Below, piece by piece: positions 117 to 16,526 of a stretch of DNA of 64,000 bases. A model generated the notes under the pieces. That model made no database searches. It was given only the letters and a program-made list of their open reading frames with translations, and was not told where the DNA came from. Within the stretch, counting starts at the first letter, position 1; every line of letters begins with the position of its first letter. Origin of the DNA: Mycolicibacterium parafortuitum (GTDB taxonomy: Bacteria > Actinomycetota > Actinomycetes > Mycobacteriales > Mycobacteriaceae); contig NZ_AP022598.1 of assembly GCF_010725485.1 (NCBI RefSeq), forward strand, positions 1,364,001 through 1,428,000. Direction: 5' to 3'. The position numbers were made by a program, and so were the translations under genes.

Positions 117-2129
117 ATGACCAGCTCCACCCCACCGCCGATCATCACCGGCGATCTGGTCCTGCTCGACACGGCGGTCGACGGCGGTAAGCAGGCGGTG
201 ATCCGCAGGCTTGCCGAGGCGCTGGCCGGGGCCGGGCGCACCAACGACGCCGAGGGTCTGATCGGTGCGGCGATGGCCCGTGAGGAGCAGTCCGCGACCG
301 GCCTGCCCGGCGGGATCGCGATCCCGCACTGCCGTTCCCCGTACGTCGACACCCCCACCATCGGCTTCGCCCGGCTCAAACCGGGGGTGGACTTCGGCGC
401 CCCCGACGGCCCCGCCGATCTCGCGTTCCTGATCGCGGCGCCGGATTCCGGTGGTCAGGAGCACATGAAGCTGCTGTCGAGTCTGGCGAGGGCTTTGGTC
501 CGCAAGGACTTCGTCGAGGCGCTGCGCGCGGCCACCACCGCCGACCAGATCGTCGAACTGGTCGACGGGGTCGTCAACCCCGCCCCGGCCGCAGCACCCG
601 CTGCCCCGGCCACCGCACCCGCGGCGCCTCCGGCGGAGACGCCCGCCGCGCCGAAGGCGCAGAAGACCATCGTCGCGATCACCGCGTGCCCGACCGGCAT
701 CGCGCACACCTACATGGCCGCCGACTCGCTGGCCCAGGCCGCGAAGGAGGCCGGGGTCAACCTGCTCGTCGAGACCCAGGGATCTTCGGGCAGCACGCCG
801 TTGCCGGCCGCGACGATCGCCGAAGCGGACGCGGTCATCTTTGCCACCGACGTCGGGGTCAAGGACAGGGGCCGGCTCGCGGGGAAGCCGGTCATCGCGT
901 CGGGGGTGAAGCGGGCCATCAACGAACCGGCCAAGATGATCGCCGAAGCCGTTGCCGCAGCGGATAACCCGAACGCGGCCCGGGTGGAGGGGTCGGGTGC
1001 GGCGGCGCCGGACGCACCGTCGGGCGATGTCGGCTGGGGTACCAGGACCCGGCAGATCCTGTTGACCGGTGTGAGCTACATGATCCCGTTCGTCGCCGCC
1101 GGTGGCCTGCTGATCGCCCTGGGATTCCTGTTCGGCGGCTACGAGATCTCCGAGATCGCCAACGACATCGCGCTGAACAACTCCCTGACCAACCTGCCCG
1201 ACGGCGGGTTCACGCAGTACCTCGGGGCGATACTGTTCGCCCTCGGCAACCTGGCGTTCGGCTTCCTGGTCCCGGCGCTGGCCGGCTACATCGCCTTCGC
1301 GATCGCCGACCGGCCCGGCATTGCACCGGGTTTCACCGCCGGAGCGCTGGCGGTGTTCGTCGGCGGCGGCTTCATCGGCGGCATCCTCGGCGGTGTGATC
1401 GCCGGGTTCACCGCACTGTGGATCAGCAGGTTCGACGCCCCGCGGTGGTTGCGCGGCCTGATGCCGGTGGTGATCATCCCGCTGGTCGCGTCACTGACCG
1501 TCGGGCTGATCATGTTCTTCCTGATCGGCCGCCCGCTGGCGTGGATCAACACCGGCCTGACCGACTGGCTGAACAGCCTCACCGGCACCTCCGCGGTGCT
1601 GCTGGGCGTGATCCTGGGTCTGATGATGTGCTTCGACCTCGGCGGCCCGGTCAACAAGGCGGCGTACGCGTTCGCCACCGCCGGCCTCGCCGCCTCCACC
1701 ACCGCTTCGTTCCAGGTGATGGCCGCGGTGATGGCCGCAGGCATGGTGCCGCCGCTGGCGATGGCCCTGGCCACCACCATCCGGCCGGGTCTGTTCAGCG
1801 AACCGGAAAAGGAAAACGGCCGCGCCGCATGGCTTCTCGGAGCCTCGTTCATCTCCGAGGGTGCCATCCCGTTCGCCGCGGCGGATCCGCTGCGGGTGAT
1901 CCCGTCGATGATGTTCGGCGGCGCCATCACCGGTGCACTGTGCATGGCGTTCGGCGTGACACTGCGCGCGCCGCACGGCGGCATCTTCGTGTTCTTCGCG
2001 ATCGGCAACCTGCTGTGGTTCGTGGTCGCCCTGGCCGCGGGCACCATCGCATCGGCACTCGCCGTCATCGCGGCCAAACAGCTCGTCAAACCCGGCGCCA
2101 AGGCCGACACCGAACTCGTCGCCGCCTGA
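117..2129 (+). CDS. fruA: PTS fructose transporter subunit EIIABC
   Basis: This 670-residue membrane permease of the phosphotransferase system takes up fructose and phosphorylates it to fructose 1-phosphate. Three domains are visible in order. An EIIA domain (about 1-155) carries the phospho-accepting histidine H71 in IAIPHC. An alanine/proline-rich linker (about 155-180) follows. The EIIB domain (about 183-290) has the phospho-cysteine C191 in ACPTGIAHTYMAA. An EIIC domain (about 310-660) has eight or more hydrophobic segments. The length fits one-piece fructose permeases. The start ATG at 117 follows the fruK stop closely and ptsH lies 36 bases downstream, so fruK-fruA-ptsH form one operon. 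Identification as fructose-specific is strong from the EIIB motif and neighbours. Confidence 0.95.
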   Translation: MTSSTPPPIITGDLVLLDTAVDGGKQAVIRRLAEALAGAGRTNDAEGLIGAAMAREEQSATGLPGGIAIPHCRSPYVDTPTIGFARLKPGVDFGAPDGPADLAFLIAAPDSGGQEHMKLLSSLARALVRKDFVEALRAATTADQIVELVDGVVNPAPAAAPAAPATAPAAPPAETPAAPKAQKTIVAITACPTGIAHTYMAADSLAQAAKEAGVNLLVETQGSSGSTPLPAATIAEADAVIFATDVGVKDRGRLAGKPVIASGVKRAINEPAKMIAEAVAAADNPNAARVEGSGAAAPDAPSGDVGWGTRTRQILLTGVSYMIPFVAAGGLLIALGFLFGGYEISEIANDIALNNSLTNLPDGGFTQYLGAILFALGNLAFGFLVPALAGYIAFAIADRPGIAPGFTAGALAVFVGGGFIGGILGGVIAGFTALWISRFDAPRWLRGLMPVVIIPLVASLTVGLIMFFLIGRPLAWINTGLTDWLNSLTGTSAVLLGVILGLMMCFDLGGPVNKAAYAFATAGLAASTTASFQVMAAVMAAGMVPPLAMALATTIRPGLFSEPEKENGRAAWLLGASFISEGAIPFAAADPLRVIPSMMFGGAITGALCMAFGVTLRAPHGGIFVFFAIGNLLWFVVALAAGTIASALAVIAAKQLVKPGAKADTELVAA

Positions 2130-2165
2130 ACATCCGAAACGTCAACCCCCGATAAAGGAGAATCC

Positions 2166-2423
2166 ATGCCCAGCAAGACCGTCATCGTCGGATCGGCCAT
2201 CGGCCTGCACGCCCGTCCCGCCGCGATCATCGCCGAGGCCGTGGTCGAGGCCGGGGTGCCCGTCACGCTGTCGATGGACGGCGGCGAACCCGTCGACGCC
2301 GGTTCGGCCTTGATGATCATGACGCTCGGGGCAGGCAATGGTGCACAGGTCACCGTGTCCTCCGATGACGAGAACGCGATGGACACCATCGCCGAGCTGG
2401 TGCAGAAGGATCTCGACGCCTGA
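2166..2423 (+). CDS. ptsH: Phosphocarrier protein HPr
   Basis: This 85-residue cytoplasmic carrier moves phosphate from enzyme I to the EIIA domain of sugar permeases. The active histidine is H15 in IGLHARPAA, exactly where HPr proteins carry it, and S47 sits where Ser46 of Gram-positive HPr is found, although the surrounding residues differ from the HPr kinase consensus. A clear ribosome site (AAAGGAG, 2154-2160) precedes the ATG. It is the last gene of the fructose operon here. Length and motif are fully normal for the family. Confidence 0.96.
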   Translation: MPSKTVIVGSAIGLHARPAAIIAEAVVEAGVPVTLSMDGGEPVDAGSALMIMTLGAGNGAQVTVSSDDENAMDTIAELVQKDLDA

Positions 2424-2658
2424 CGCGCGGATACCCGTGATCGGGGTGTTCTCGTCGCCGCCGGACGGCACCTCCACAGGAGCCCGGCGGGAAAAGAAAG
2501 TGGAATGACCCCTCCCTGAGCGCCCCTAACATGGCCGATGTGTCTGCGATTCGTGCGCCCAGGGGGAGGTCCTACACCCCGGCTGCCGCGTCGCCGAGGT
2601 TGCTGACGAGGCTCCTGAGCGGCGTGCTCGCGACCTCCGTTTCGGGGGGTGAGCGCGC
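2424..2658 (+). promoter_or_regulatory. Spacer between ptsH and mycP1, likely holds the mycP1 promoter
   Basis: This 235-bp gap separates the PTS operon from the ESX-1 arm. A TAACAT hexamer at 2527-2532 fits the mycobacterial TANNNT -10 form, but no convincing -35 was seen. A G-rich ribosome site lies at 2644-2653, just before the mycP1 GTG. The promoter is an inference. Confidence 0.3.
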
Positions 2659-4005
2659 GTGCGGCGCACCGGAGCGCTGATCGTCGCGGCGTTGCTGGTG
2701 CTGCTCGCCGCCCCGCCCGCGGGAGCCATCGAGCAACCGATCATCGACCCCGCTGCCGTTCCCCCCGACGAGACCGGACCCGATCAGCCGATGGAACAGC
2801 GCCGCATCTGTGCCACGCCGGCGGTGTTCCCGGACTCGAATTTCGCCGACCGCCCGTGGGCCGGCGACTACCTGCAGATCACCGAAGCGCAGAAGTTCGC
2901 AACCGGCGCCGGTGTCACCATCGCCGTTATCGACACTGGCGTCAACGGATCTCCGCGCGTCCCCGCCGAACCCGGCGGCGATTTCGTCGACGCCGCAGGC
3001 AACGGCATGTCGGACTGCGACGCGCACGGCACGCTGACGGCCGCGGTGATCGGCGGGCGTGGCGCCCCCACCGACGCGTTCGTCGGCATGGCCCCCGACG
3101 CCCGCATCCTGTCGCTGCGCCAGACCTCGGACAGCTTCTCCCCCGTCGGCGCCCGCAGCGACCCGAACGACCCGAACGCGACGCAAACAGCGGGATCCCT
3201 GCGCAGCCTGGCCCGCGCGATCGTGCACGCGGCCAACATGGGCGCCCAGATCATCAACATCAGTGAGGCCGCCTGCTACAAGGTGACCCGCCGGATCGAC
3301 GAAGCGGTGGTCGGTGCTGCCGTCAACTACGCCGTCAACGACAAGGGCGTGGTGATCGTGGCCGCGGCCGGCAACACCGGCGAGAACTGCACCCAGAATC
3401 CACCGCCGGACCCCGCACTGCCCGCGGATCCCCGCGGTTGGAATGAGGTGCAGACGATCGTGTCGCCGGCCTGGTACTCGCCGTTGGTACTCACCGTCGG
3501 CAGCATCGCCCCCAATGGGCAGCCCAGCGGCTTCTCGGTGCAGGGACCTTGGGTGGGCGCCGCCGCCCCCGGAGAGAACCTGGTCGCTCTCGGCTACGAC
3601 GGCAACCCGGTCAACGCCCTCCAGGGTGAGGACGGGCTGATCCCGATCAGCGGCACCTCGTTCTCGGCGGCCTATGTTTCGGGTTTGGCGGCCCTGGTCA
3701 AGCAACGCTTCCCCGAACTGACGCCGGGCCAGATCATCAACCGCATCACCGCGACCGCCCGTCATCCCGGCGGCGGCGTGAACAACATCGTCGGCGCCGG
3801 CGTCATCGACCCGGTAGCGGCACTGACCTGGGATGTACCTGCCGGCCCGTCCGAAATCCCCTACAACGTCAAGGCCATTCCGCCTCCGGTGTACAACCCA
3901 CCGCCGGATCGCAGCCCGATCACCTGGGTCGTGGTGACCGGCATCGGAGTGGCGGTGCTGCTCGGCGTCGGGGCGTTGGCCCGTCGGGCCTTGGGGCGCC
4001 GATGA
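2659..4005 (+). CDS. mycP1: Mycosin-1, ESX-1 subtilisin-like membrane protease MycP1
   Basis: MycP1 is the serine protease that caps the ESX-1 secretion pore and trims EspB. The 448-residue protein has an N-terminal signal segment (about 5-22), a subtilase domain with the full triad D92 (VIDTG), H123 (CDAHGT) and S334 (GTSFSAA), and a C-terminal transmembrane helix (about 422-440) followed by a basic tail. Length and the PNDPNAT loop match mycobacterial MycP1. The GTG start at 2659 is chosen because it gives a complete signal peptide and has a G-rich ribosome site six bases upstream. Its stop overlaps the eccE1 start by ATGA, so the two are coupled. It is the first gene of the plus arm of ESX-1. 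Confidence 0.97.
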   Translation: MRRTGALIVAALLVLLAAPPAGAIEQPIIDPAAVPPDETGPDQPMEQRRICATPAVFPDSNFADRPWAGDYLQITEAQKFATGAGVTIAVIDTGVNGSPRVPAEPGGDFVDAAGNGMSDCDAHGTLTAAVIGGRGAPTDAFVGMAPDARILSLRQTSDSFSPVGARSDPNDPNATQTAGSLRSLARAIVHAANMGAQIINISEAACYKVTRRIDEAVVGAAVNYAVNDKGVVIVAAAGNTGENCTQNPPPDPALPADPRGWNEVQTIVSPAWYSPLVLTVGSIAPNGQPSGFSVQGPWVGAAAPGENLVALGYDGNPVNALQGEDGLIPISGTSFSAAYVSGLAALVKQRFPELTPGQIINRITATARHPGGGVNNIVGAGVIDPVAALTWDVPAGPSEIPYNVKAIPPPVYNPPPDRSPITWVVVTGIGVAVLLGVGALARRALGRR

Positions 4006-5399
4006 GCAGGATCGCCTCGATCTTCGGACTGAAGGTCACCACCGGCCATGCCCTGTGGGCGGCGGTGCTCATCCCCGCTTGCATACTCATCTTCGCGCCG
4101 CTGGACCTGATGTGGCTGGGTGTGACACTGGCAGTACTGATCGCGTTGTCGGCGTTCGTCACGATTCGCGGCCGACGGGTCAGCGGATGGGTGGCCGCGT
4201 TGTTCGCGTGGCGGCACCGCCACAAGCAGCCTCCGCCAACGCCTTCCGAGTCCGCGGTCGGTGCGACCGTGCTGCCCGGCGATCACGTCGCACTGCGGTG
4301 GCAGCACGGCTACCTGGTGTCGGCGATCGAGCTGATCCCCCGCCCGTTCACCCCGACCGTCATCGTCAACGGCAGCGCGGCCACCGATGACGTGATCGAC
4401 ACCAGACTTCTCGAAAACTTGCTGACCGCATACTGTCCCGACTTGGAGGCCGATGTCGTCTCGGCCGGCTACCGGGTGGGCCGCACCGCCCCTGCCGCGC
4501 TGGTGGGGCTCTACGAACAGGTCGTCGGGCCCTATCCGGCGCCGGCGAACCGCCGCACGTGGATCGTGTTGCGCGCCGATCCGGACAAGACGCGTAAATC
4601 GGCACTGCGCCGTGACACCGGGGTATCCGGCCTGGCCCAGTACCTGGTGTCGTCGACGACGCGGATCGCCGACCAGCTCGCCGGCAGCGGTGTCGATGCC
4701 CGCCCGGCCCGCAGCTTCACCGATTTCGACCACGCCACCGACATCAGCTTCGAGCGCGAGACCTGGTCGATGGTCAAGGGCCGCAGCACCTTTACCACCG
4801 CCTACCACGCCCCGGGTGGGCCCGACGTGTGGTGGTCCGCTCGAGCGGATCACACCCTTACTCGTGTCCGGATCACGCCCGGCGCTGCGCCGACCACCAC
4901 CGTGCTGCTGACGACGCTGGCGAATCCGTCGACACCGCGCGGATTCTCGTGCCTGTACGGCGGACAGCGGGCGGCGCTGCTGGGTGAGAGCCCGGTGAGC
5001 GACCGTCACCACGAGTTGCCCCTCGGATCGGCGGGGGTGCTCGTCGGCGAGACCGCGGACCGTTACCCGGTGTACATGCCGTTCGACGACATCGACGTCA
5101 GCATCAACCTCGGCAACGCACGGCTGTTCACACAGTTCGTGGTGCGTGCCGCCGCGGCAGGGGCGAACGTGACCCTGCAGCCGCAGTTCCGCGAGTTCGC
5201 CGGATTCGTCAACGCCGACATCGGCCCCGTGCCGAAGGTGTCCTGGCCACAGGCGACGACATACCTTCGCCCGCACCCGGGCGTCGGCCGAGTGATGTTG
5301 CGGGACAGCTACATCGCCACACCGCGTCACAAGCAACTGCCGATCCGGCTGATCAACCCCCGCGAGGAGAGTCGCTACCAGATGGCGCTCGAATCATGA
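4002..5399 (+). CDS. eccE1: ESX-1 membrane complex component EccE1
   Basis: EccE1 is the peripheral subunit of the EccBCDE inner-membrane channel. The 465-residue protein begins with two closely spaced hydrophobic helices (about 16-35 and 38-54) and continues as a long cytosolic domain, as is usual for the family. Length agrees with M. tuberculosis EccE1 (462). It overlaps mycP1 by four bases and is followed 22 bases later by espB with a GGAAGGAGG ribosome site. Recognition rests on the mycP-eccE pairing and on overall sequence character, because the family has no catalytic motif. Confidence 0.94.
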   Translation: MSRIASIFGLKVTTGHALWAAVLIPACILIFAPLDLMWLGVTLAVLIALSAFVTIRGRRVSGWVAALFAWRHRHKQPPPTPSESAVGATVLPGDHVALRWQHGYLVSAIELIPRPFTPTVIVNGSAATDDVIDTRLLENLLTAYCPDLEADVVSAGYRVGRTAPAALVGLYEQVVGPYPAPANRRTWIVLRADPDKTRKSALRRDTGVSGLAQYLVSSTTRIADQLAGSGVDARPARSFTDFDHATDISFERETWSMVKGRSTFTTAYHAPGGPDVWWSARADHTLTRVRITPGAAPTTTVLLTTLANPSTPRGFSCLYGGQRAALLGESPVSDRHHELPLGSAGVLVGETADRYPVYMPFDDIDVSINLGNARLFTQFVVRAAAAGANVTLQPQFREFAGFVNADIGPVPKVSWPQATTYLRPHPGVGRVMLRDSYIATPRHKQLPIRLINPREESRYQMALES

Positions 5400-5421
5400 T
5401 CTGCAGGAAGGAGGCCCGGTA

Positions 5422-7020
5422 ATGCCCGGCGGCGAACTCAAGGTCGACCCCAGCGATCTGTACAGCAAGGCGACCATGATCGAGGGCATCCCGTGGGGTG
5501 ACGACCCGACTGCCGCCACCGTCGGCGATCCCGACGCACTCTCCGCCACGACGGCTTCGGTCCGCAACCTGGTGAAGAACGCCCAAGCACTGGGCGCAGA
5601 GCAGAAATGGGGAATCGCGGAGAGTCGGCGGCTGGCCGAGACGCTGCGACTGGTCGGGAAAGCCTACGAGGACGTCGACGAGGCGTCGCGCCATAACATC
5701 GAGGCCTCCATGCCAGGCGGAACCGCAAGTCCCGCACCCACACCCGTGCCTGTCGGGATCAACACCGCCCCGGTTCCGCCGGTGCCCCCGCCGATGCCGT
5801 CGTTCGAGGACGTCCCGACCGACGGCGACATCCTCGACCCGATCGAGACAGACGAGAAGCTCCATGGCGGCGACCAGGCGTCGACGCTGCGGTCGGCGGC
5901 GGCGGAGTGGACGGCCGCCGCGGGCCGGCTCACCCAGGCGGCACTTCCGTTTGAGATCCGGATGCAGAACTGGGAGGGGGTCGCCGCCGAGGCGGCGTAC
6001 ACGAAGTTCAAGGCGTTCGGGGGGTGGCTTCAGGCGTTGGCCGGCAAATGGACGCAGTTGGCCGCCGAAGCCGAGAAGTTGGCGACTGCCCACGATCAGG
6101 CCAAGTCGGCGAACGCGCCGGTGCGCGCGGAGTACGAAGCACTGCGGACTCAACTGCTGTCCGGGCAGACCGACGGCGGTGCCGCGCGCGCCATCCAGTT
6201 GAAGATGGAAGCGCTGTATCAGGAGTCGGAGTCGATCCGCGAGGCGTACGCCAACGGGGGACGCCCGACTCCGGTGCAGCCGCCGCAGCCGCGTCCGACG
6301 TCGAATGCGCCGTCCTCGCCCGTAACCGGGAATGGCGACCCCAATGCGCGCGGTGTTCCGGCCCGGTCCGAAGACGAAGAGCGCCGGGGCCCTTCGGCTT
6401 CCGGCGGAGGCGCTCCGGGCGAACGATCCGGCGGAGGCGGCCAGCCGCAGACACCGCAGCAGGCGCCTGTTTCGGCGGCGTCGGCGACCGATCCCGCAGC
6501 GCAGGCAGCCCAGCAGGCCGGCCCGCAAGGCGGACAGCAGGGCAGTCAGCAGGGGGGCGGGTCGCCCGGCGGTGGGTCTCCCGGGGGCGCCCCTGGCGGT
6601 GGGGCTCCAGGATTCGGCAAGGGCACCGACCCGAAGCTGCCGACCGGACCAGCGCTCAAACCTGCTGCGGCGGGCGGCGGTTCGGCCGGCGGCGGAGGGG
6701 GTGGTGGCGGGGCGCCGTCGTCGCCGCTGCAGCCGGCAGTGGGCGCAGAGACAGTGGCGCCGTCGCCGGCAAGGGTGGGTGCTCCGGTTCCGGTGGCCTC
6801 CGCGGGTGCCGGCGGCGCCATGATGGGCGGCGGCATGGGCGGCATGGCGCCGATGCATGGCGCACAGGCAGGTGGCGCGGGAGAGAAGAAGCGCAATCCG
6901 CAGCTGTCCACGGACGAGCCGCTTTACGTGGAGGATCGCCCGCACACCGAACAGGTGATCGGGGTCAGGCCGCGGCGCCGGGGAAATCCCGACGACACCA
7001 GGAGGGGAGACGCCCAATGA
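5422..7020 (+). CDS. espB: ESX-1 secreted protein EspB
   Basis: EspB is an abundant secreted ESX-1 substrate that forms ring-like oligomers and is cleaved by MycP1. The N-terminal 280 residues are the PE/PPE-like helical fold and show the bipartite export signal: a WxG turn (NWEGVA, about 190) and a YxxxD motif (YEDVD, about 82). Residues from about 285 on are proline, glycine and glutamine rich and disordered, ending in a more acidic and basic tail. At 532 residues it is longer than M. tuberculosis EspB (460), the excess lying in the low-complexity region. It ends in an ATGA overlap with espL. The family assignment is firm from order and motifs. Confidence 0.95.
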   Translation: MPGGELKVDPSDLYSKATMIEGIPWGDDPTAATVGDPDALSATTASVRNLVKNAQALGAEQKWGIAESRRLAETLRLVGKAYEDVDEASRHNIEASMPGGTASPAPTPVPVGINTAPVPPVPPPMPSFEDVPTDGDILDPIETDEKLHGGDQASTLRSAAAEWTAAAGRLTQAALPFEIRMQNWEGVAAEAAYTKFKAFGGWLQALAGKWTQLAAEAEKLATAHDQAKSANAPVRAEYEALRTQLLSGQTDGGAARAIQLKMEALYQESESIREAYANGGRPTPVQPPQPRPTSNAPSSPVTGNGDPNARGVPARSEDEERRGPSASGGGAPGERSGGGGQPQTPQQAPVSAASATDPAAQAAQQAGPQGGQQGSQQGGGSPGGGSPGGAPGGGAPGFGKGTDPKLPTGPALKPAAAGGGSAGGGGGGGGAPSSPLQPAVGAETVAPSPARVGAPVPVASAGAGGAMMGGGMGGMAPMHGAQAGGAGEKKRNPQLSTDEPLYVEDRPHTEQVIGVRPRRRGNPDDTRRGDAQ

Positions 7021-7373
7021 CCGATGACGATTTGCATCCGGAAGTGGCTGCGGTGCTGCGGCAGGCGAAGCGTCTGCAATCGTTGATGGACGAGCAGTTG
7101 CACAAGATGGAGACCGGGTCGTTCACCGCGGCGGATGACAGCGACACCGTCGAGGTGACGTTGAACGGGCATCACTGGCTCAAGGATGTCTACATCCAGG
7201 ACGGGCTGCTGCGACTGGGCGCCGAGACCGTGGAGGACCGGGTCAACGAGGCGTTGCAGAAGGCCAACGCGGAGGCGACGGAGGCTATCAACGCTGACCG
7301 TGAGCTGCTCGATGCGGTGGTCGCGGAGATCGCGGCGGAGATCACCGACGAGCCGAGGCGCGCGCCGGAATGA
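7017..7373 (+). CDS. espL: ESX-1 secretion-associated protein EspL (YbaB-like)
   Basis: EspL is a small cytosolic ESX-1 protein needed in other mycobacteria for stability of Esp substrates and known to act with EspE/EspF. The 118-residue product has the YbaB/EbfC-type layout: an N-terminal helix (VLRQAKRLQSLMDEQ), a central beta segment (VEVTLNGHHWLKDVYI) and a long C-terminal helix. The start is fixed by the four-base overlap with espB (ATG at 7017). M. tuberculosis EspL is 115 residues. Its stop overlaps a further ATG at 7370 that opens only a very short frame. Confidence 0.93.
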   Translation: MTDDDLHPEVAAVLRQAKRLQSLMDEQLHKMETGSFTAADDSDTVEVTLNGHHWLKDVYIQDGLLRLGAETVEDRVNEALQKANAEATEAINADRELLDAVVAEIAAEITDEPRRAPE

Positions 7374-7477
7374 CCCTCAAAGACAATTCGGTTGCGGGGC
7401 CGTCAAATACGGCGCCGGGGTCCGGCGCACCCGTTGGTGCTCTCGGACTCTTACGCTGGTTCAGTCGGGGTCGCTGA
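7370..7477 (+). CDS. Short open frame coupled to espL, possible gene remnant
   Basis: An ATG overlaps the espL stop in the same ATGA way used throughout this arm, but the frame lasts only 35 codons (MTLKDNSVAGPSNTAPG at the start, RWFSRGR at the end). No family is recognised. The coupling suggests that a normal gene once followed espL and was cut short where the lower-GC block begins, just downstream. It could equally be a non-coding coincidence. Confidence 0.25.
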   Translation: MTLKDNSVAGPSNTAPGSGAPVGALGLLRWFSRGR

Positions 7478-7537
7478 CGCGATTGGCCTGCCGATGACTA
7501 TGGAGGATGGGATGACGCGAGTTCGGGAGTGGTGCAA

Positions 7538-8614
7538 GTGAGTTCACCTCCTGGGCAAGTGCCCCCTCCGCCTGCCGGTCCTCCGTGGGGTCCGCTACCA
7601 GCGAGCTCACCGCGCACTTCTCGCGCTACCAAATGGGTTCTCGGCGGTTTGGCGCTGTTGGTTGTTGTAGTGGTGACGGTCGTTGCGACACTGCTAGTCG
7701 CCAGGAACCAAACTGGATCCCCCCAAACAGCTTCGGAAACGACGGTCCCCTCCGTTGACATCTCGGCGGTCGCCAGTGCGAATGACAAGGGCCCGGCATC
7801 TTTGATCCTTGACGATCCGACCTGCATCTCGTGGGCGCCCATCGCCGATGCACTCGCAGAGCAACAGGCGGACGGCTGGATTGACCGGGATCCGACGATC
7901 GATTCCAAGAGGTGGACCACAGAGCAACGCAGGCAGTACGAGGATGTCGCAGATGCGATGCGATTGGCGGCTGATCGAAGTTTGATGCTCGCAGAGATGA
8001 CGCCTCATAGGGTGATGCGCGAACTCTACGAACAATCCGCCGCCTACTGGCGTGCGTACGCTGACAGGGTTCCGAACTACGAACCAGCTGACGACCACCT
8101 TGCGAACGCAGTGTCGGGAACTTCGAACGCTCTCGTCTGGATTTGTTCGGCCATGGAGTCCAAGGCCGCCGAAGCGCAAGCTCCTTTCCTTATCGACGCC
8201 GCACCCCCGCTTAAATTCTCCCCTGTCGATGCCATTGCGAATCCGCAGCCATTCCTGGAGATGCGCACGCGTGCCTGCGAGGATTGGCGCGCAACCGTCG
8301 CTGACTTCCAAGCGCAAATTGGAGATTGGCTCGCGATAGACCCCAGCATTAGCGCCGATCAATGGACACCTGCTCAGCAAGAGATTTACGTTAGAACCGC
8401 GACCATCATGGAAATAAACGCTGGGCAGCTACAGAACATCGGCGTCCAAAGTGGGAATCCCGTCTTTCAGGATTTCGCTACGTTAGCTGCCCAGTACCGG
8501 AGGGCCTACATTTCGGCTATCCCGTCCTATCGACCTTCCGATAATTACCTGGCAAGCGCTGCGTCCCAGTTGGTTGCAGCGATTGATGAAGCGTGCACGG
8601 CGGCAGGGCCCTAA
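7538..8614 (+). CDS. Membrane-anchored ESX-1-locus protein with two Cys-bounded repeats (paralogue A)
   Basis: No named family is recognised. The 358-residue protein has a proline-rich cytosolic start, one transmembrane helix (about 33-55) and a large outer part made of two copies of a ~107-residue unit. Unit 1 runs C96-C203 and unit 2 C247-C353; each opens with Cys-x-x-Trp, has a (D/R)P...W.....Q motif near residue 25-35 of the unit and closes with Cys, suggesting one disulfide per unit. It is paralogous to the product of 10780-11820, sharing [10 protein letters not shown] exactly and a 44-residue gap between units. The GTG at 7538 is chosen for its GGAG site eight bases upstream. GC and codon use (TTA at 8483, ATA, AGG) are lower than its neighbours, suggesting recent acquisition. 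A surface or mating-identity role is only inferred from position. Confidence 0.8.
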
Positions 8615-8619
8615 CCGTC

Positions 8620-10764
8620 GTGGGAATCGCTAAAAGCCCCGGGGAGTTCTCCGAACAAATGACCGTGCCGAATGGCTGGCCATCGATTGACGAGACAGAT
8701 TTAACAAGGCGCGCGAACGACTTCCTTCTGCTTCGCAACGCTGTACACCACGTTATCGATTCTTGGCATAGCCAACAGGTACAGGTGTTCGACCGCGGAA
8801 TATGGCGGGGGTCCAGTGCAGACGCCGCCGAGGGTGCTGTGCAGCGCCATACAGCAGCGATGCGCGACATTGCAAACCACCTTGGGAAGGCCCACGCCTA
8901 CTACAACATGCTCGCCAGGCTCGTCGAGCAGACGAAGATTTCGATCAATCAGGCTTTAGCAAATGCGCACGCGGTCATTGAGTCATTTCGGAGCGATCCT
9001 GCACTAACTCCCGCCGAAAAGGAGGCGGCGGTTCAGGCGTGGGTGACCGCTGAGAACGGGAAAAACACTGTAACAGTGCTGGTTTCGAGTGCAGATGTAC
9101 CGGCATTCGAATCGTGGCTACCCCTATCGGCTGAGATCCCACCGGTGTTCCCACCTGTAGGTACCGCTCCGCCGAACATTAAGGGCGACGATCGAATCGT
9201 TTCGCACGGAGGTACCAATCCTGTGTCCCACGCCGTCCGTGGGAACGCACGAAAGTCCGGAGACAGTATCGGTCCAGGGGGAGGGACGCCGCCATATCAC
9301 CCAGAGAACGCTGGCTCGAACCCCTTGGGCCGAGTGCCGGATACGAATCCCACCCCATCCCCCACCACCCCCAGCACAATGGGCGCCCCCAGCACCCCTT
9401 CCGGGACTTCCTCCCCCACAAGCCCACTCAGCACATCCGGCCCTTCATCCTCGGGTGGTCCGAGCGCATCCGGGTCACCCAGCGGCCCGTCGTCGGGAAC
9501 AGGCTCTCCATCGGCAGCGTCACCGTCCACCGGCGCCTCGACCGCACAACCGTCGAACGCCTCTGCCGCAGGCGCCGGAAAAGCTCAGCCCACCCCGCTG
9601 CAGCAGGTGATCAATCAGGCGCCCCCCCTGGCATCCTCTGCTCCGGCGCAACAGCCGACGTCCGCGCCCCCACCGAGCCAGCCAGCAGCCGCAGCTCCGC
9701 CCGCCGCGACGACCCCCAGCGGCGCGGTGCCCGGCGTCGCCGGCTCCGGCGGTCCCGCACCAGGTGGCGCCCCATCGCCTCCTGGCGGCCCGCCGCCAGC
9801 TCCCCCGGTGCCGCTCGGTCCTCCCACGTCGCCCGCGCCACCAGCCCCTCCGCCACCGGGAGTTCCCGGCTCTGCCGCCGGCTCCGTCGGCCCCGGCGTC
9901 GCTCCCATGTCGACGCCCGGCGGCGGCGCGGCTGCGGCACCCATTCCGGTGTCGGCGGCCCGCGCGGAGCGCGACGCGATCCTGTCCGCCTCGACCGCCA
10001 ATGCGCTGCGGCGCAGGAACAACGGCGGCGACCCGTTGCAGCGCGCCCGGCACATCGCCGCTGCACTGAATGTCGGCGTGATGGACTTCGGATTCTTCTG
10101 GGTCACCGCCGTGACCACCGACGGCACCATCGTCGTGGCCAACAGCTACGGCATCGCCTACATCCCGGAAGGCGTCCGCCTACCCGAACACATCCGCATG
10201 GCCTCGGCCGACGAATCCGTCCCCGCAGCTGAACGCGCCCGGTGGGCCACCTACCCCATCCTGGCGGTACAAGCCTGGGCGCAGCACCACGACCAACGAT
10301 TGCGCGCGGTGGTCGCGACCGAGGAGCAGTTCGCCAGCTTCGATCCCGGTGTCCCCAAGATCGTCCTCACCTCGGAGGACATCCCCGACGACGGCACCAT
10401 GCGGGGCCGCGACCGCCTTGAGGTCATCTCCCCAAGTGCGGCTCAGCTACTCAAGGACACAGGCGATTTCGGATTGAATGACCTGTTGCCTCCGCCGCCG
10501 GCCGACCTCGAGTCACCGGCCGACCGGAGCGCCAAGCTGTGGTTCGACGTGACCAAACCCCTGATGAGCACCAATCCCAAGCGCTCGATGGCGCATCTGA
10601 AGGCGTTCATCGCTTACGCCGACCACGCCCAGGAGCTCGCCGTCCACCGAGCGCACACCGCGGCAGACCCTGCTGACCAGCGCCGAGCCATCGCCGACTG
10701 GGTCTACTGGCAGCACCTCGCCGTCCTGATGAACGAGGCCGTCGCCGCCGATACGCCCGCGTAG
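8620..10764 (+). CDS. espK: ESX-1 secreted/associated protein EspK, mosaic
   Basis: EspK is an ESX-1 substrate that in M. marinum escorts EspB. The 714-residue protein has an N-terminal WxG-type helical domain (about 1-165; WRG turn near 66), a long Pro/Ser/Ala-rich linker (about 230-440) and a conserved C-terminal domain (about 440-710) with [14 protein letters not shown] and [10 protein letters not shown], closely like M. tuberculosis EspK. The GTG start at 8620 aligns with the start of that protein (GEFSEQM in place of GSYARQM); an ATG at 8593 would overlap the previous gene. The N-terminal half to about 9330 has lower GC with TTA codons at 8701 and 8956, while the rest is normal, so the gene looks recombinant with the joint in the linker. 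Confidence 0.92.
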
Positions 10765-10779
10765 GTACCGTCGGTATCG

Positions 10780-11820
10780 ATGACGTTGCCACCTCGCCGA
10801 CCTACGTTCGGGTCCAGTGATCGCAAGGACCGCATCGTCGGCTCCGGCGCGTTGCTCCTGGCGATACTGATCACGGTCACCACCTTGTGGATCAGCCGCG
10901 ACGACGAACACTCTTCCCCGGCGACTGACGCGCCCCCACCGTCGCCGACCGCCACTGTCGAGACCTCGGAGTTCGCCAGCGCGCACGACGACGACCCGGT
11001 CACCCTCCTCACCCACGAACCCACCTGCGCGGACTGGGAACCCATCAACGAGCGCCTCAAGACCGAGCTGGCCAACGGCTGGCTGGAGCGCGACCCGGCG
11101 GTCCCTGCCAGCGCATGGACGGCCGCGCAGCGCGAACAGCACCTCGAAGTCGCCAAGGCGCTGCGCGCCGCAGCCGACGACACCGCCCCGCTGGCCAAGG
11201 CAACCCCGCACCGAGTCATGCGCGAGCTCTACGGACAGTTGATCGCCTACTGGCGGAGCTACGCCGACGCGGTCGACCGATACCGTCCGCCCGCCGACCA
11301 CCTGGCGCTGGCCGCCACCCACGCCGCCGAATCGATCAACGGGGTCTGTGCCGCAATCGATTTCGGCGCCGGGCGGGATCGCAGCCCGCTTGTCGTCCCC
11401 GGCCCACCCCCGGTACCCGACATGCCGATCGGTGATCCCGACACCCCGACGCGATACATCACCAAGCCCTCGCCGTTCTGCTCCGAGTGGATCACCATGG
11501 TGGCCGACTACGCCACGGCCACCACCGAGTGGCGCGAACGGCACGATCCGAACATCCCCGCCCGCTACTGGTCGCCCGAACAACGCAAACTGGCCGACGA
11601 CGTCGCCGGCGTGATGGAACAGAACGCCGATCGCGCCCAGCTGCTCGGGCTACTCAGCGGCAATCTGATCGCCGCGGACTTCGCCGCCCTGTCCGCGCAG
11701 TATCGTCGGGCCTACGCCGCCGCGCTACCGGATTTCGCCCTGCCGGACATCCATCTCGACAACACCGCGCTGAGGCTTCAGGCGCTGACAAACCAAGCCT
11801 GCCATGCGGTTCAGCGGTGA
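10780..11820 (+). CDS. Membrane-anchored ESX-1-locus protein with two Cys-bounded repeats (paralogue B)
   Basis: This 346-residue protein repeats the design of the product of 7538-8614: a short basic N-terminus, one transmembrane helix (about 21-39), a Pro/Ser linker, then two units C83-C190 and C234-C341, each spaced 107 residues and 44 apart. The CADWEPINE opening, the TPHRVMREL and AYWRSYAD stretches and the closing cysteines are shared. Unlike its paralogue it has the high GC of the surrounding genome, so it is probably the resident copy. It starts 15 bases after espK and its TGA abuts the stop of the opposite-strand gene with no spacer. Function is unknown; an extracytoplasmic partner of ESX-1 is the reasonable guess. 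Confidence 0.85.
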   Translation: MTLPPRRPTFGSSDRKDRIVGSGALLLAILITVTTLWISRDDEHSSPATDAPPPSPTATVETSEFASAHDDDPVTLLTHEPTCADWEPINERLKTELANGWLERDPAVPASAWTAAQREQHLEVAKALRAAADDTAPLAKATPHRVMRELYGQLIAYWRSYADAVDRYRPPADHLALAATHAAESINGVCAAIDFGAGRDRSPLVVPGPPPVPDMPIGDPDTPTRYITKPSPFCSEWITMVADYATATTEWRERHDPNIPARYWSPEQRKLADDVAGVMEQNADRAQLLGLLSGNLIAADFAALSAQYRRAYAAALPDFALPDIHLDNTALRLQALTNQACHAVQR

Positions 11821-11827
11821 TCACCGC
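11814..11827. terminator. 14-bp palindrome holding both stop codons of convergent genes
   Basis: GCGGTGATCACCGC is a perfect palindrome. The plus gene stops with TGA at 11818-11820 and the minus gene with TGA at 11823-11821, so the two ESX-1 arms meet inside it. It could act as a weak bidirectional end; there is no T-run, so termination is inferred. Confidence 0.4.
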
Positions 11828-12132
11828 GGCGCGGGAATCTCGACACCGTCGATGTTGCGTGCCGAATCCTCGTCGGTGGCGTCGTACTCGTTCGCCGAAC
11901 TGACCAGGTCCGCTCCGAACTTGCGAGCGGCGACCACGATACCTGCGACTTCCGTAGCCACCGTGGTCTTTGCCGCGATGCAGGCCACGGCGGTCTTGAG
12001 CTGCGGCACCGCCGCAGCCGCCTCGCCCAGCGGAGCGTCGGCCTGCAGACTGGCGAACTGTTCGGCGGCTGAGACGAACACCTCACCGGCCCTGCGGAGT
12101 TCGCTGGTGTCGACCTCAAGCTTGTCGGTCAT
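11821..12132 (-). CDS. EspC-like ESX-1 substrate (T7SS EspC/DUF2580 family)
   Basis: A 103-residue, all-helical small protein that fits the EspC/EspF size class (both 103 residues in M. tuberculosis). It begins DKLEVDTSELRRAG, typical of the family, and ends with a YxxxD-type export signal (YDATD, near residue 84) after the second helix. It overlaps espJ by ATGA, so the two are coupled and could be secreted as a pair, as EspC pairs with EspA and EspF with EspE. Since espE and espF are missing upstream of espG1, this gene may fill that place. The family call is likely; the function is inferred. Confidence 0.72.
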   Translation of the reverse strand: MTDKLEVDTSELRRAGEVFVSAAEQFASLQADAPLGEAAAAVPQLKTAVACIAAKTTVATEVAGIVVAARKFGADLVSSANEYDATDEDSARNIDGVEIPAPR

Positions 12133-12794
12133 AGGTCGATCCTGCTGTCAGATTCGGGAGCGCGATGTCGTCCGGGCCGTTGCGGCTCGCTCTCACGTTC
12201 GTTGGCTTCACGTTCCGGCGCGCGCTCGGCCTCCGGTTCGCCACCGGCCGCACCGTCATCCTGCTGCGCATCTGGACCGAACTGGCCCACCAGCTGTTGA
12301 ATTTGTTGTCCACCCTGCTGGACGCCTTGCATGAGTGGTTGGCCTGCCTGTGAGACGGCCTGCGGCGCTGCGGCTGCGGCCCCCATCATCTGCATCGGGA
12401 TGCCCATCATCTGGCCCATGACGTCGCCACCAGTCCCACCGCCCGCAGCGGGGTTCGTCGATCCGCCGCCCGGCGGTGTCCGGCCCGCGCTCTGCAGTTC
12501 TTCGTGGACCGCGGCCGCAATACGCTGATCTGCCTCCGCATAGGCCCGCGCCGAATCCACGACGTTCTCCGCGGTCGTCGTCGCCTCCGTCTTGATCAGC
12601 GGCAGCTGGGTCGTGACCGGGGTCTCGACCGCGGGTATCTGTCTGATGATCTCCACCGACAACGGATCGGTGCCGACGGGCATGAATGGGGCTGGTGCGG
12701 CGGGCAATTGACCGGCCGCAGCCGACATTGCGCCGCCTGCGGCAGCCAGCTGCTCAGGATCGACCGACAGCGGCGGTGTTCCGCCTGTGACCAT
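12129..12794 (-). CDS. espJ: ESX-1 secreted protein EspJ
   Basis: EspJ is an ESX-1 substrate with a PE-like N-terminal helical hairpin. The 221-residue product opens with LSVDPEQLAAAGGAMSAAA, similar to LAVDPTGLSAAAAKLA of M. tuberculosis EspJ, and carries a YxxxD export signal (YAEAD, near 88). Residues 105 onward are Gly/Met/Gln-rich and then strongly charged (Glu/Arg/Pro), a disordered tail shorter than in M. tuberculosis (280 residues). The ATG at 12794 has a GGAGG-type ribosome site. It directly follows eccD1, as in other mycobacteria. Confidence 0.88.
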   Translation of the reverse strand: MVTGGTPPLSVDPEQLAAAGGAMSAAAGQLPAAPAPFMPVGTDPLSVEIIRQIPAVETPVTTQLPLIKTEATTTAENVVDSARAYAEADQRIAAAVHEELQSAGRTPPGGGSTNPAAGGGTGGDVMGQMMGIPMQMMGAAAAAPQAVSQAGQPLMQGVQQGGQQIQQLVGQFGPDAQQDDGAAGGEPEAERAPEREANERESEPQRPGRHRAPESDSRIDL

Positions 12795-12803
12795 CTCCGC
12801 CTC

Positions 12804-14330
12804 CTAGAATCTGAGGTTCCGCAGAACGTCGTAGACGCCCGCGATCCACAACAACAACGGGATGACCGCAGCGATCGTTGCTCCGTCGAGAAGTTCGAGG
12901 ATGCGCTTGCTCACCGGCGAGATCCGCCGCACCCCGTTGGTCGCACCAACGATGACGACGGCCACCAAGGCCACCGCCGTGTAGATCGCCAGGAACAACC
13001 AGGCCCGCTCCGGGTACCACAGGCACAGCCGCACCATGACCCCCGACGGGATCACCACGGCCGCCGCCAGCAGCGCCCACGCACACCAGCGATCGGCGTA
13101 CAGCCGGGAGCGGAACCCGCACAGCACGGTCACCAGCCCGGCGACGATCATGCTGTGCACGAAGAAGTGTCCCTGCACCACGATCGCGATCGCGCCGGCA
13201 GCCAAGACCAGTGCTCCGGCGGTCAGGAAGCCGATCAGCAGCCGCTTGGCCAGTCGGCTGCGCTCGGTCAACCGCGCCGCGGAGTCGGGCACCGACGCGA
13301 TGATCGCCTGCCACGTCTCGGACTCCTCCGAGGGGTCGGTGGTGGCGACCGGGTCGAGCAATTCGTCGTTGGTGACCGTCTCACCTGGGGCGGGTATCGG
13401 CGGCAGCGCGATCCGCGCGACCGCCACGGTCATCTTCGCCGCGTTGGTGACCACGATCAGCCCGAACGCGATCGCCCCTGCCGGGACCCAGGCGTGCCAT
13501 CCGTAACCGAACGCGACCGCTGCCATCGTCAGCGCGAGGGCCGACACGGCAAGGAACGCCGCGACCTCCGCTCTTCGCCTGGGTCCACCGCGGGTGGCGA
13601 GGACCATCAGCAACACCAGTGCTCCGGCGCCGGCGATCTGTGGGGACCCGAGGAAGGCCACCCCTTCCGGCAGCGGCACCGCCAACACGATGGCGCCCAC
13701 GAGCGCGACCGCAGAAGCCCCCAGCAGACTTTCGGCGATGTCGAGGTTGCCGAACCTCCTCTGCGCCAGCACGCTGCCACCCAGGAGTCCGACTCCCAGC
13801 ACGCCCAGCCCCGCGGACCACCACCAGTCGTGCCCGGTCGACGCCCACGACAGGATCGACACGATGGTCAGCAGCAGAGCCGCCAACGGGAAGACGAGCC
13901 CGATGAAGCGGTACAGGGCACCGCGGTCGAACTCGGGCGTCTCGTCGAGCACGGCGATCGCGTCGATCACGTCCTCGACGAGCGGGCGGTACCTCTCGGT
14001 GCGACTGACCGATACGACGGTGAGCAGCGAGCCGTCCACCACGCCCGCATCGTCGAGCGAGTCCGTCAGCTTGATCGGCGGAGCACCAGGACGAGCGAAC
14101 GACCACACCCCCTGCGCCCTGAAGTCGAAGCCGCCCAGCACATCTGCCGGGGTATCGGTCAGAATCTCGCCCAGCACGGCGACGGTCTCGTCGACGTAGC
14201 TCTCGATCGGTGCGGCCGAGGGCAACACCAGGTCCGTCATCCGCCGACCGGTCAGCACCGTGACCCGGGTGGTCGACGGCCGGCCCGGCGCGGTGCCGGA
14301 CGTGGTCGGGGCGGTGGCCGTCGCGGTCAA
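12804..14330 (-). CDS. eccD1: ESX-1 inner-membrane channel protein EccD1
   Basis: EccD1 is the main membrane subunit of the ESX-1 channel. The 508-residue protein has an N-terminal ubiquitin-like domain (about 20-110, containing TGRRMTDLVLP and FDFRAQGVWSF) and about eleven hydrophobic helices from residue 130 to the end, closing with GVYDVLRNLRF as M. tuberculosis EccD1 closes with a near-identical tail. The start is TTG at 14330, overlapping the espI stop as TTGA; no ATG or GTG lies before the conserved domain, and the resulting length matches the family (511). espJ follows nine bases after its stop. Confidence 0.96.
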   Translation of the reverse strand: MTATATAPTTSGTAPGRPSTTRVTVLTGRRMTDLVLPSAAPIESYVDETVAVLGEILTDTPADVLGGFDFRAQGVWSFARPGAPPIKLTDSLDDAGVVDGSLLTVVSVSRTERYRPLVEDVIDAIAVLDETPEFDRGALYRFIGLVFPLAALLLTIVSILSWASTGHDWWWSAGLGVLGVGLLGGSVLAQRRFGNLDIAESLLGASAVALVGAIVLAVPLPEGVAFLGSPQIAGAGALVLLMVLATRGGPRRRAEVAAFLAVSALALTMAAVAFGYGWHAWVPAGAIAFGLIVVTNAAKMTVAVARIALPPIPAPGETVTNDELLDPVATTDPSEESETWQAIIASVPDSAARLTERSRLAKRLLIGFLTAGALVLAAGAIAIVVQGHFFVHSMIVAGLVTVLCGFRSRLYADRWCAWALLAAAVVIPSGVMVRLCLWYPERAWLFLAIYTAVALVAVVIVGATNGVRRISPVSKRILELLDGATIAAVIPLLLWIAGVYDVLRNLRF

Positions 14331-15706
14331 CGGCGTTCGAGCCTGTCGAAATCATCCGACAGAGCGGCGGCCAGTTCGACCACCTTGCGGCGGAACGCTT
14401 TTCCGAGCAGATCGAGTTGGATCTCAGTGCCCGCTGCGATGTGTTTGTCCCACGGCAGCACGATCACCCTACCCGCGGGGACGTGCCGCTCGAACTGCTG
14501 CACGAGGTCTTCGACGTCGATGTTCGGCTTACCCGGCGTCACATGGTTGACCACCACGCACGATCGCCCGAGCAGATCCTGGTAGCCGTTCTGGCGCAGC
14601 CAGTCCATCGTGATCGCGGCCTGACGCGCACCGTCGATCGATGCGCTCGCGACGATCACCAGACCTGACACCGTGGACAGGACACCTCGCGCCCCCGGCT
14701 GGAACAGCCCGGCACCGCAGTCCGCCAACACCAGGTTGTAGTAGCGCGAGACGATGTCGGTCGCGGAGCGCCAGTCGTCGTCGTTGAACTCCCGCCGCGC
14801 GGCGCTGTACTCCTCGGAGGAGAGCACTTCGAGGTTCGACCCGTTCATGCTGGTGTAGGCGCGAATGTCGTTGTAGCGATGGAGTTCTTGGTCGGACAAC
14901 AGATCAGCGATGGTGGCCGCCGACTGCCTGCCGGCACGGTCAGCGAGATTACCGCCGTCCGGATCGGCGTCGATGGCCAGGATGCGGTCGCCGCGGATAC
15001 TGGACAGCGCCGAGCCCAATGCGACCGTCACCGCAGTCTTGCCGACTCCGCCCTTGAGTCCGAAAACCCCGATCTGATAAGAGTCGCGCGCGTTGCGCCG
15101 GATTCGGGTGAACAGATCGAGTTCGTAGATCTCATCGGGCGACAGGCCGAGGTTGATCCGGGTCATCACGTACACCCAGTGGCGCCAGCCGCGTTGCGAC
15201 GGCATCTTGACCGCCGACCGGACGCCGACGTGGGCCAGCGCATCGATGGCGCGGTGGTTGCCCATCGATGCTGCGGACGTGGTCTGGGTTTGTGCCGGCA
15301 CCCGCTGATCGGCGCCGTCCCCGTAGTAATGCGACGGCGGCGGCGCCGGCGCGGTCCTGGGCGCGGGAGGCGGTGGCTGCCGCTGCTCGTGCCGCGCCCC
15401 ATTCGGCGCCTGCGGTGTGCGCATCATGCCGTTGTTCGGAACGTGCTGGGCCGCACGCGCCGGCACCGGTTGAAGCTGACCGGTCACCTGGCTGGGGTTC
15501 TCGGTCTGCCAGGACTGGTGTGACACCGACGCCGTCTGCGTGCGCGCGTGCGCGGCGGGCGTCGGCGCAGACGTATCAGCGGATGGTGCTGTGCCCTGGG
15601 GTAGCACGCCGTCGCGACCGGCTGGTGGCAGTTCGCGGTTCGGCTCCTCGTCGACCGTCTGGACGGCGTCCGGGGAGTGGAAGAGCCGGTCATAGTCGGC
15701 CGACAT
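14327..15706 (-). CDS. espI: ESX-1 ATPase-like protein EspI
   Basis: EspI is a cytosolic MinD/ParA-like protein that in M. tuberculosis damps ESX-1 activity at low ATP. The 459-residue product has a Pro/Gln/Thr-rich disordered N-terminus (about 1-145) and a MinD-type ATPase domain with a deviant Walker A GLKGGVGKTA near residue 220 and IDADPDG after it. It is about 200 residues shorter than M. tuberculosis EspI (666), the loss being in the disordered part. ATG at 15706 has a GAGAGG ribosome site. It lies between esxA and eccD1 as expected. Confidence 0.92.
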   Translation of the reverse strand: MSADYDRLFHSPDAVQTVDEEPNRELPPAGRDGVLPQGTAPSADTSAPTPAAHARTQTASVSHQSWQTENPSQVTGQLQPVPARAAQHVPNNGMMRTPQAPNGARHEQRQPPPPAPRTAPAPPPSHYYGDGADQRVPAQTQTTSAASMGNHRAIDALAHVGVRSAVKMPSQRGWRHWVYVMTRINLGLSPDEIYELDLFTRIRRNARDSYQIGVFGLKGGVGKTAVTVALGSALSSIRGDRILAIDADPDGGNLADRAGRQSAATIADLLSDQELHRYNDIRAYTSMNGSNLEVLSSEEYSAARREFNDDDWRSATDIVSRYYNLVLADCGAGLFQPGARGVLSTVSGLVIVASASIDGARQAAITMDWLRQNGYQDLLGRSCVVVNHVTPGKPNIDVEDLVQQFERHVPAGRVIVLPWDKHIAAGTEIQLDLLGKAFRRKVVELAAALSDDFDRLERR

Positions 15707-15798
15707 GGTTACCTCTCAATGTTCTCGGTGATGGAGCGGGCGGGCACGCCGTGGGCGATGCGGATGGGTGGATCGATCGCCCACGGCGCGCTCGGTGG

Positions 15799-16083
15799 TC
15801 AGACGAACTTTCCCCGGTTGCCCTCGTTGGTCATGAACATGTCCTCGCCGCCCGTGCGGATGGCGTTCGACAGGCTCTTCAGTGCCATGTTCAGCTCTTG
15901 GGAGCTGTTGTCCCACCTGTTCTGAACGGTCTGGTAGGCCTCGGAGGCGGTGCCGCCCCAGACCGCGGCCAGCCGCGTCACCGCTGCCTTGCCGTCCTGC
16001 AACAGTCCCTCGGTGCGGGCCACTGCTCCCATGATGTCGTCGGCGTCGGTGGCGATACCGGCGAAGTTGTATTCGATTGACAT
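15799..16083 (-). CDS. esxA: ESX-1 secreted protein EsxA (ESAT-6)
   Basis: EsxA is the 6-kDa secreted antigen that leaves the cell with EsxB. The 94-residue product shows the helix-turn-helix hairpin with WGG at the turn (AVWGGTASEAYQ) and YNFAGI near the N-terminus, both like M. tuberculosis EsxA. It lacks the YxxxD signal, which is carried by EsxB. The ATG at 16083 has a GGAGAG site. It sits 30 bases after esxB, the usual pairing. Confidence 0.97.
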   Translation of the reverse strand: MSIEYNFAGIATDADDIMGAVARTEGLLQDGKAAVTRLAAVWGGTASEAYQTVQNRWDNSSQELNMALKSLSNAIRTGGEDMFMTNEGNRGKFV

Positions 16084-16113
16084 ATCAGCTCTCCAAATCT
16101 GTTCGGTCGTGGA

Positions 16114-16428
16114 TCAGAGGTCGCGGGACATCTGTGCGGCCAGGCCCTGCGCGATGTCGTCGTCGCGGACGTCGTAGTCGATGCCGCTGCTGTGGACGTT
16201 CTCCGAGATCTGCGTGAGCAGGTCGATCTGCTGACGGGCGGCCTCGGAGAACCGCAGCAGCGCGGCCTGCACCGCCGGTCCCGACGCCCCGCCCCTCATG
16301 TTGGCCGAGAGCGCCGTCGCGGTTCCCTCGACATTGCCCAGGATCCCCGTCAACTCGCCGGAGATCCGGTCAAAGTTGCCGGCCTCGACGACCAGTTGCG
16401 CGGTATCCGCCTGCATACCCGATGACAT
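16114..16428 (-). CDS. esxB: ESX-1 secreted protein EsxB (CFP-10)
   Basis: EsxB forms the 1:1 dimer with EsxA and brings the C-terminal export signal read by EccCb1. The 104-residue product keeps QEAGNF-like (VEAGNFDRISGEL) and the YxxxD signal (YDVRD, near 85). The turn that is WxG in most family members reads MRG here (SANMRGGASG), so the tryptophan is replaced by methionine; EsxA keeps its own. ATG at 16428 has an AAAGG site. Identity is firm from position and from the conserved N-terminal half. Confidence 0.96.
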   Translation of the reverse strand: MSSGMQADTAQLVVEAGNFDRISGELTGILGNVEGTATALSANMRGGASGPAVQAALLRFSEAARQQIDLLTQISENVHSSGIDYDVRDDDIAQGLAAQMSRDL

Positions 16429-16526
16429 GTGCTGACCTTTCTGTTGAACCTGTGCTTCGGTTACCTGCGTGCTCGCCTACGGCGAGCCCTCCCGACCCAG
16501 GTGGCCGGCAAGTCTGTTGGCGACGT

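Follow-up and report, generated by a model that had tools for sequence, protein, structure and literature searches.

TraA of Myxococcus and Ids of Proteus are polymorphic surface proteins that are compared when cells come into contact, and identity then permits exchange or tolerance. Proteins of the Msmeg0070 type are like them in their way of working, whereas here identity bars exchange. The mid locus of M. smegmatis is situated within esx1, and the passages of Clark et al. (2022, PMC9040860) on which we rely throughout report that Msmeg0070 decides self-identity in conjugal transfer, the mid region having been shown by a swap. Here we analysed a stretch of 64,000 nucleotides from Mycolicibacterium parafortuitum (contig NZ_AP022598.1, positions 1,364,001 to 1,428,000 of the forward strand), hereafter called the window, in whose ESX-1 region two genes, A and B, flank espK. 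Judged from their sequences, both belong to the Msmeg0070 / PF27060 family. We consider it probable that gene A is the counterpart of Msmeg0070, that replacement of its outer part together with the N-terminal domain of EspK (EspK-N) gave a new identity, and that gene B is a paralog that changes more slowly and has been inherited vertically.

In the same passages, Msmeg0070 is described as a protein of 388 residues with 41 prolines and a membrane segment at residues 67-89, whose gene starts 32 nt downstream of Msmeg0069 (PMC9040860). Its disruption permits mating with an otherwise excluded strain of the same mid or, in MKD8, with itself, and a plasmid-borne copy restores the mating block. They state that the protein shows similarity to no others, that environmental species have homologs, that the neighbouring Msmeg0071 varies at its N-terminus and is conserved at its C-terminus, and that 0069-0070 tandems occur at other sites too. 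Msmeg0071 is EspK and Msmeg0069 is EspJ, as named in parts of two further papers (PMC8262963; PMC12502791). It is thus already known what the family does in M. smegmatis and that it is polymorphic, and the variability of the 0071 N-terminus and the environmental homologs have been described as well. In the open-licence literature that we searched, we met no description of the two-unit plan or of its duplication, nor of covariation with EspK-N, a conserved downstream paralog or one-unit relatives with a MerR-like head, all of which are reported below; PF27060 is not named there either.

A first-pass annotation, made from the letters of the window alone, had recognised no family for the two products. 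Profile searches against NCBIfam and a Pfam-A release without PF27060 gave no family name for A or B. The family is nevertheless known: the precomputed label PF27060.1 stands on all 120 relatives of A and all 120 of B among the matches listed, from about 8000 candidates. P0123, 100% identical to A, is labelled PF27060.1, and P0003, 93% identical to B, PF27060. A relative of B was found in 97 of 198 sampled genomes of the genus.

To find a copy of Msmeg0070 itself, we searched 396 genomes with the MycP1 sequence of PDB 4kb5, which we take to be the M. smegmatis protein; it gave a 99% match in genome G077 and 98% in G344. The family gene in the ESX-1 locus of G077 encodes 388 residues with 41 prolines when read from the second in-frame start (390 residues from the first), residues 67-89 form one hydrophobic stretch, and its first base is 32 positions from the stop of 0069. 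Gene A is 36% identical to this copy over 339 of its 358 residues (E 1e-61) and B is 36% identical over 281 residues (E 6e-50), while P0055, also labelled M. smegmatis, is only 39% identical to it. The espK gene of the window and the frame at 12129-12794 match 0071 and 0069 of the G077 locus. Gene A thus resembles Msmeg0070 in near-full-length homology, in plan (Pro-rich tail, anchor, two Cys-bounded units), in its place directly upstream of EspK in an ESX-1 locus and in strong divergence between close relatives. The window differs in having a second, conserved copy downstream of EspK, in having its EspJ gene beyond B on the other strand and not upstream of A, and in that, against a sister genome, the anchor of A is kept and its outer part replaced; it is also known from sequence alone. 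The module comprises:

7538..8614, + strand: gene A, Msmeg0070/PF27060 family, 358 residues (homology, Cys pattern, model)
7823..8146, + strand: predicted unit 1 of gene A, C96 to C203 (Cys positions, unit profile, AlphaFold2)
8276..8596, + strand: predicted unit 2 of gene A, C247 to C353 (Cys positions, unit profile, AlphaFold2)
8620..10764, + strand: espK, Msmeg0071 homolog (homology; alternative GTG start at 8593)
about 7681..9358, + strand: block without close match in genome G027, the outer part of gene A and the EspK N-terminal domain
10780..11820, + strand: gene B, second family member, 346 residues, downstream of espK
11026..11349, + strand: predicted unit 1 of gene B, C83 to C190 (Cys positions)
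11479..11802, + strand: predicted unit 2 of gene B, C234 to C341 (Cys positions)

The first-pass description of these two proteins proved correct. In the translations the cysteines fall at 96/203/247/353 in A and 83/190/234/341 in B, each of the four units opens with C-x-x-W, one string of 10 residues is identical in both, and each product has one membrane helix and two units. The genes are paralogs (39% identical, E 1.2e-69), espK lies between them, and a search of the 6.04 Mb genome with gene A found only A and B. From its N-terminus, the product of gene A has a Pro-rich tail, a membrane helix at about residues 32-55, read from the sequence together with a low-confidence helix in the model, and the two Cys-bounded units. 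Positive charges precede the helix, which suggests that the tail is inside and the units face outward.

The two units are homologous (hhalign probability 99.8%, E 7.2e-29, 27% identity): a profile of unit 1 matches 95/95 unit-2 sequences at E<0.01 and the reverse 96/96, as against 0/92 and 0/95 scored shuffles. From these comparisons the pair is an internal duplication, as had been proposed. All four Cys columns are filled in 148 of the 151 distinct family open reading frames of the loci examined; the remaining three have gaps at one or two of these columns because the matches are truncated. C-x-x-W is no rule of the family, since the second unit of the G077 copy opens with C-x-x-L. AlphaFold2, run on gene A with 96 sequences, predicts four helices in each unit, as the annotation had guessed (ten-residue means of the predicted local distance difference test 92-98), and has no confidence in the Pro-rich tail. 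In the modelled units helix 1 starts with the first cysteine and the last turns of helix 4 contain the second, which would place both at the same end of an up-down bundle. We also considered helical bundles of the vinculin/talin/FAT and McpS types, which may share with the units a fold or just the general four-helix arrangement.

The family also has members with one unit. A one-unit query found 23 relatives, all labelled PF27060, in which a head that may be of the MerR winged-helix type is joined through a membrane helix to a single unit; some are on plasmids, e.g. pGD21-2. Their heads are alike and their units variable. They share with gene A the Cys pair and the pattern of a variable outside and a constant inside, but have a DNA-binding-like head instead of the Pro-rich tail, and one unit instead of two. 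Exactly two cysteines are present in 22/22 aligned one-unit relatives (the short remaining one was left out), which is better evidence for pairing within a unit. Each unit is probably braced by its own disulfide; the disulfide of the first-pass annotation is thus supported, if indirectly.

The window holds an ESX-1 region, of which mycP1 and eccE1 served as the conserved-core yardstick. On the + strand the order is mycP1, eccE1, espB, espL, gene A, espK, gene B; beyond gene B, an EspC-like gene, an EspJ-like gene, eccD1 and espI are on the - strand. The flanking features are:

2659..5399, + strand: mycP1 and eccE1, ESX-1 core
5422..7020, + strand: espB, with PE and PPE domains
7017..7373, + strand: espL, directly upstream of the A-espK-B module
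11821..12132, - strand: EspC-like small protein (PF10824 match at E 1.3e-4, slightly below the cut-off)
12129..12794, - strand: EspJ / Msmeg0069 homolog (36% identity over part of the length)
12804..15706, - strand: eccD1 and espI, ESX-1 genes on the far side of the module

We compared the window with one sister genome, G027. Their DNA is 92% identical at 2001-7680 and at 9359-16500, and only scraps of 66-76% identity are found between. The left edge of this divergent block is within the membrane helix of gene A and the right edge in the linker of EspK, a protein composed of an N-terminal WXG100_2-like domain (below the Pfam cut-off), a Pro-rich linker and a conserved C-terminal domain (EspK-C). 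At the protein level MycP1 and EccE1 are 97% identical, EspI and EccD1 96%, the linker and C-terminal part of EspK 94%, gene B 93-95%, EspB 93% and the EspC-like protein 87%; gene A reaches 48-49% and EspK-N 33-36%. The block is AT-richer than its surroundings: the GC content at third codon positions is 0.62 in A and 0.61 in EspK-N, as against 0.84 in B, 0.71 in the EspK linker and EspJ, and 0.80-0.89 in the other nine genes or parts measured. In G027 (L119 8590-8889), part of a family gene, 100 residues long, stands between the counterpart of gene A and EspK, perhaps as the scar of an earlier exchange.

Gene B behaves otherwise. Among the matches listed, and setting aside the protein identical to A, the closest relative has 60% identity for A and 93% for B. 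In seven genomes chosen for having both copies (21 pairs), the mean identity is 0.91 for MycP1, 0.88 for EccE1, 0.87 for EccD1, 0.86 for EspI, 0.81 for EspL, 0.78 for EspK-C, 0.72 for the first 100 residues of EspJ and 0.67 for B, as against 0.49 for A and 0.37 for EspK-N. In a tree, the seven downstream copies and 12 database proteins form one clade (support 0.999) that contains no upstream copy; the two further downstream copies of L135 and the one of L157 are placed outside it. Being downstream of EspK, conserved and in a clade of its own, B is a member of the family and not the orthologue of Msmeg0070. The first-pass annotation had suggested that the gene pair may be a self/non-self or receptor set; by these comparisons the two genes are not equals, A behaving as the polymorphic copy and B as a conserved clade paralog. 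In the same seven genomes, EspB (window 5422-7020) has a mean of 60% and a minimum of 35% over residues 1-320.

To follow gene A and EspK across loci, we tabulated 43 ESX-1 stretches (L115, L117, L121-L161), 39 of them with MycP1, EccE1 and EccD1. Many were picked for having a family gene near, but 17 (L145-L161) by MycP1 alone. A family gene is directly upstream of EspK in 37/39, with exactly one such pair in each, and in 15 of the 17 picked by MycP1 alone; L146 and L160 have neither gene. These 37 stretches and the window gave 38 loci and 703 pairs. The mean difference is 0.21 for the core (minimum 0.02), 0.57 for the ectodomain of the family protein (minimum 0.28), 0.74 for EspK-N and 0.41 for EspK-C (minimum 0.02). 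Differences in the ectodomain correlate with those in EspK-N at 0.74 (partial r 0.66 given the core) and with those in EspK-C at 0.44 (partial r 0.21); EspK-N thus tracks the neighbouring family protein better than its own C-terminus (0.58). In the 26 pairs with a core identity of at least 94%, the ectodomain is never more than 68% identical. EspK-C is at least 91% identical in five of them, and the anchor at least 89% in four of these five. In the clearest pair, L155/L138, identities are 98 for the core, 91 for the anchor, 40 for the ectodomain, 24 for EspK-N and 96 for EspK-C.

In these five pairs DNA similarity resumes at residues 329-480 of the EspK frame, in the linker region, and the left edge varies, some pairs having it inside unit 1 or before the start of the family gene. 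The right edge, where it can be placed (window against G027 and the five chosen pairs), is in the low-complexity linker region of EspK, as would be expected if repeats or insertion sequence (IS) elements drove exchange at a recombination hot spot, with hitch-hiking but without selection for identity or a functional tie between A and EspK-N; the mid regions of M. smegmatis do carry IS elements, according to the parts cited (PMC9040860). We hold this to be quite unlikely, since alleles are not shared in this sample (0/703 pairs are closer than 28% difference) and plasmids, too, repeatedly carry a family gene close to an EspK-like one.

Variation within the units has a pattern. Across 38 sequences the mean entropy is highest for helices 1 and 4 (2.0-2.2) and lowest for helix 3 (1.25-1.41), alike in the two units. 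Any exposed target would be expected to vary in this way, and gene A could diverge simply as a surface protein under pressure from phages or competitors, kin recognition being a speciality of M. smegmatis. This explanation seems unlikely to us: EspK-N, which is made in the cytosol, diverges along with A, and the one-unit relatives vary likewise on a regulator-like protein.

In a third alternative, A and B would be accessory components of the ESX-1 secretion system, e.g. a docking protein for EspK or EspB, with no role in recognition. In agreement with this, 37/37 stretches with MycP1, EccE1, EccD1 and a family gene have one directly upstream of EspK, and seven stretches without a family gene (L146, L160, L166, L183-L186) are also without EspK, espL abutting eccD1 or an EspC-like gene in 6/7; moreover, mid mutants behave like other esx1 mutants in matings (PMC9040860). 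Against it, we kept 79 named loci from 122 relatives, and a family gene is directly upstream of EspK in 47 of them, that is 17/20 near ESX-1 genes and 30/59 without ESX-1 genes in the stretch examined; the module thus occurs inside and outside ESX-1. In addition, the cited passages of Clark et al. report that insertions in Msmeg0070 of MKD8 leave EsxAB secretion intact, and that self-identity in M. smegmatis persists without ESX-1 secretion (PMC9040860). We regard a pure secretion role as very unlikely. The first-pass proposal that the proteins work with ESX-1 or EspK is therefore supported as to genetic linkage, while with independence from secretion in M. smegmatis its ESX-1 part fits only partly; this independence fits a protein inserted by its own anchor. 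The proposed self/non-self role is supported through homology to Msmeg0070.

Taken together, we favour the following scheme for gene A as a putative self-identity gene in this organism. The protein would be held by its single membrane helix, with the Pro-rich tail inside and two four-helix units outside. Contacting cells would compare these units, via the faces formed by helices 1 and 4; like meeting like would be read as kin, and DNA exchange barred. In the lineage of the window, the outer part of A and EspK-N would have been replaced together, while the anchor, the remainder of EspK and the ESX-1 core were retained. Gene B would most likely be a constant partner or co-receptor. We would explain the joint change of EspK-N and A by contact between them at some point, which is the weakest step. 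For M. marinum, the cited part of PMC11237470 counts EspK, EspJ and EspB among the secreted Group II substrates of ESX-1, so EspK-N could meet the units outside; the EspK C-terminal domain is said in a part of PMC9811218 to chaperone EspB.

Several observations weigh against this scheme. EspK-C is only 50-75% identical in the other 21 of the 26 close-core pairs and edges vary, so replacement of the ectodomain with EspK-N is one pattern among several. The G027 contig ends at the right edge of the divergent block, which makes this edge approximate, and the polymorphism of gene A relative to conserved ESX-1 genes is seen between species rather than strains. Across the seven genomes with two copies, EspB (0.60) and the EspC-like gene (0.61) vary too. 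The M. tuberculosis complex has EspK without a family gene. An insertion in Msmeg0071 (EspK) left compatibility unchanged in M. smegmatis, according to the cited passages (PMC9040860), and the common replacement of A and EspK-N may be mere linkage. Finally, the outward topology is suggested by charge and homology.

With these data, the domain plan of the self-identity family is described, and its variable face is predicted to lie on helices 1 and 4 of either unit. In one lineage a block has been replaced, its edges being approximate, and a partner region changes along with A. The family also has a paralog that is constant within a single clade, and relatives in which a regulator-like head goes with one unit. 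How mycobacteria compare self and non-self before DNA exchange becomes directly testable.

Some loci hold several family genes. G049:C3 (L164, L165) has five consecutive ones at a distance of about 6 kb from an EspJ-0070-EspK set, and in G182:C1 (L162, L163, L127) a region of about 40 kb near ESX-1 contains six, of which three have EspK next to them downstream; both arrays are possibly a reservoir of alleles. In L117 (G344, probably M. goodii), the ESX-1 locus has three family genes, of which one precedes EspK and the others lie between eccD1 and a 0069-like gene.

As for the one-unit relatives, an EspK-like gene is near them in 4/13 distinct loci examined. We tentatively suggest, as a possibility with the odds against it, that the unit is a polymorphic recognition head carried by two kinds of membrane protein. 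One would be the identity protein of the EspJ-0070-EspK module, with two units; the other would be a tethered MerR-like regulator with one unit, in several cases on plasmids, turning like or unlike contact into transcription. EspK-N would be a co-inherited ligand and B a constant partner. In eight loci (L224-L231), one-unit genes stand in a common neighbourhood of other genes without EspK. A gene of 77-94 codons with no Pfam family is directly upstream of plasmid one-unit genes (L189 9252-9536, L191 9390-9623). On plasmid pTY66_01 (L187 9307-14022), two tandem two-unit genes are beside an annotated type VII secretion target, and the adjoining annotated alpha/beta hydrolase has an EspK-N-like stretch (E 5.8e-7).

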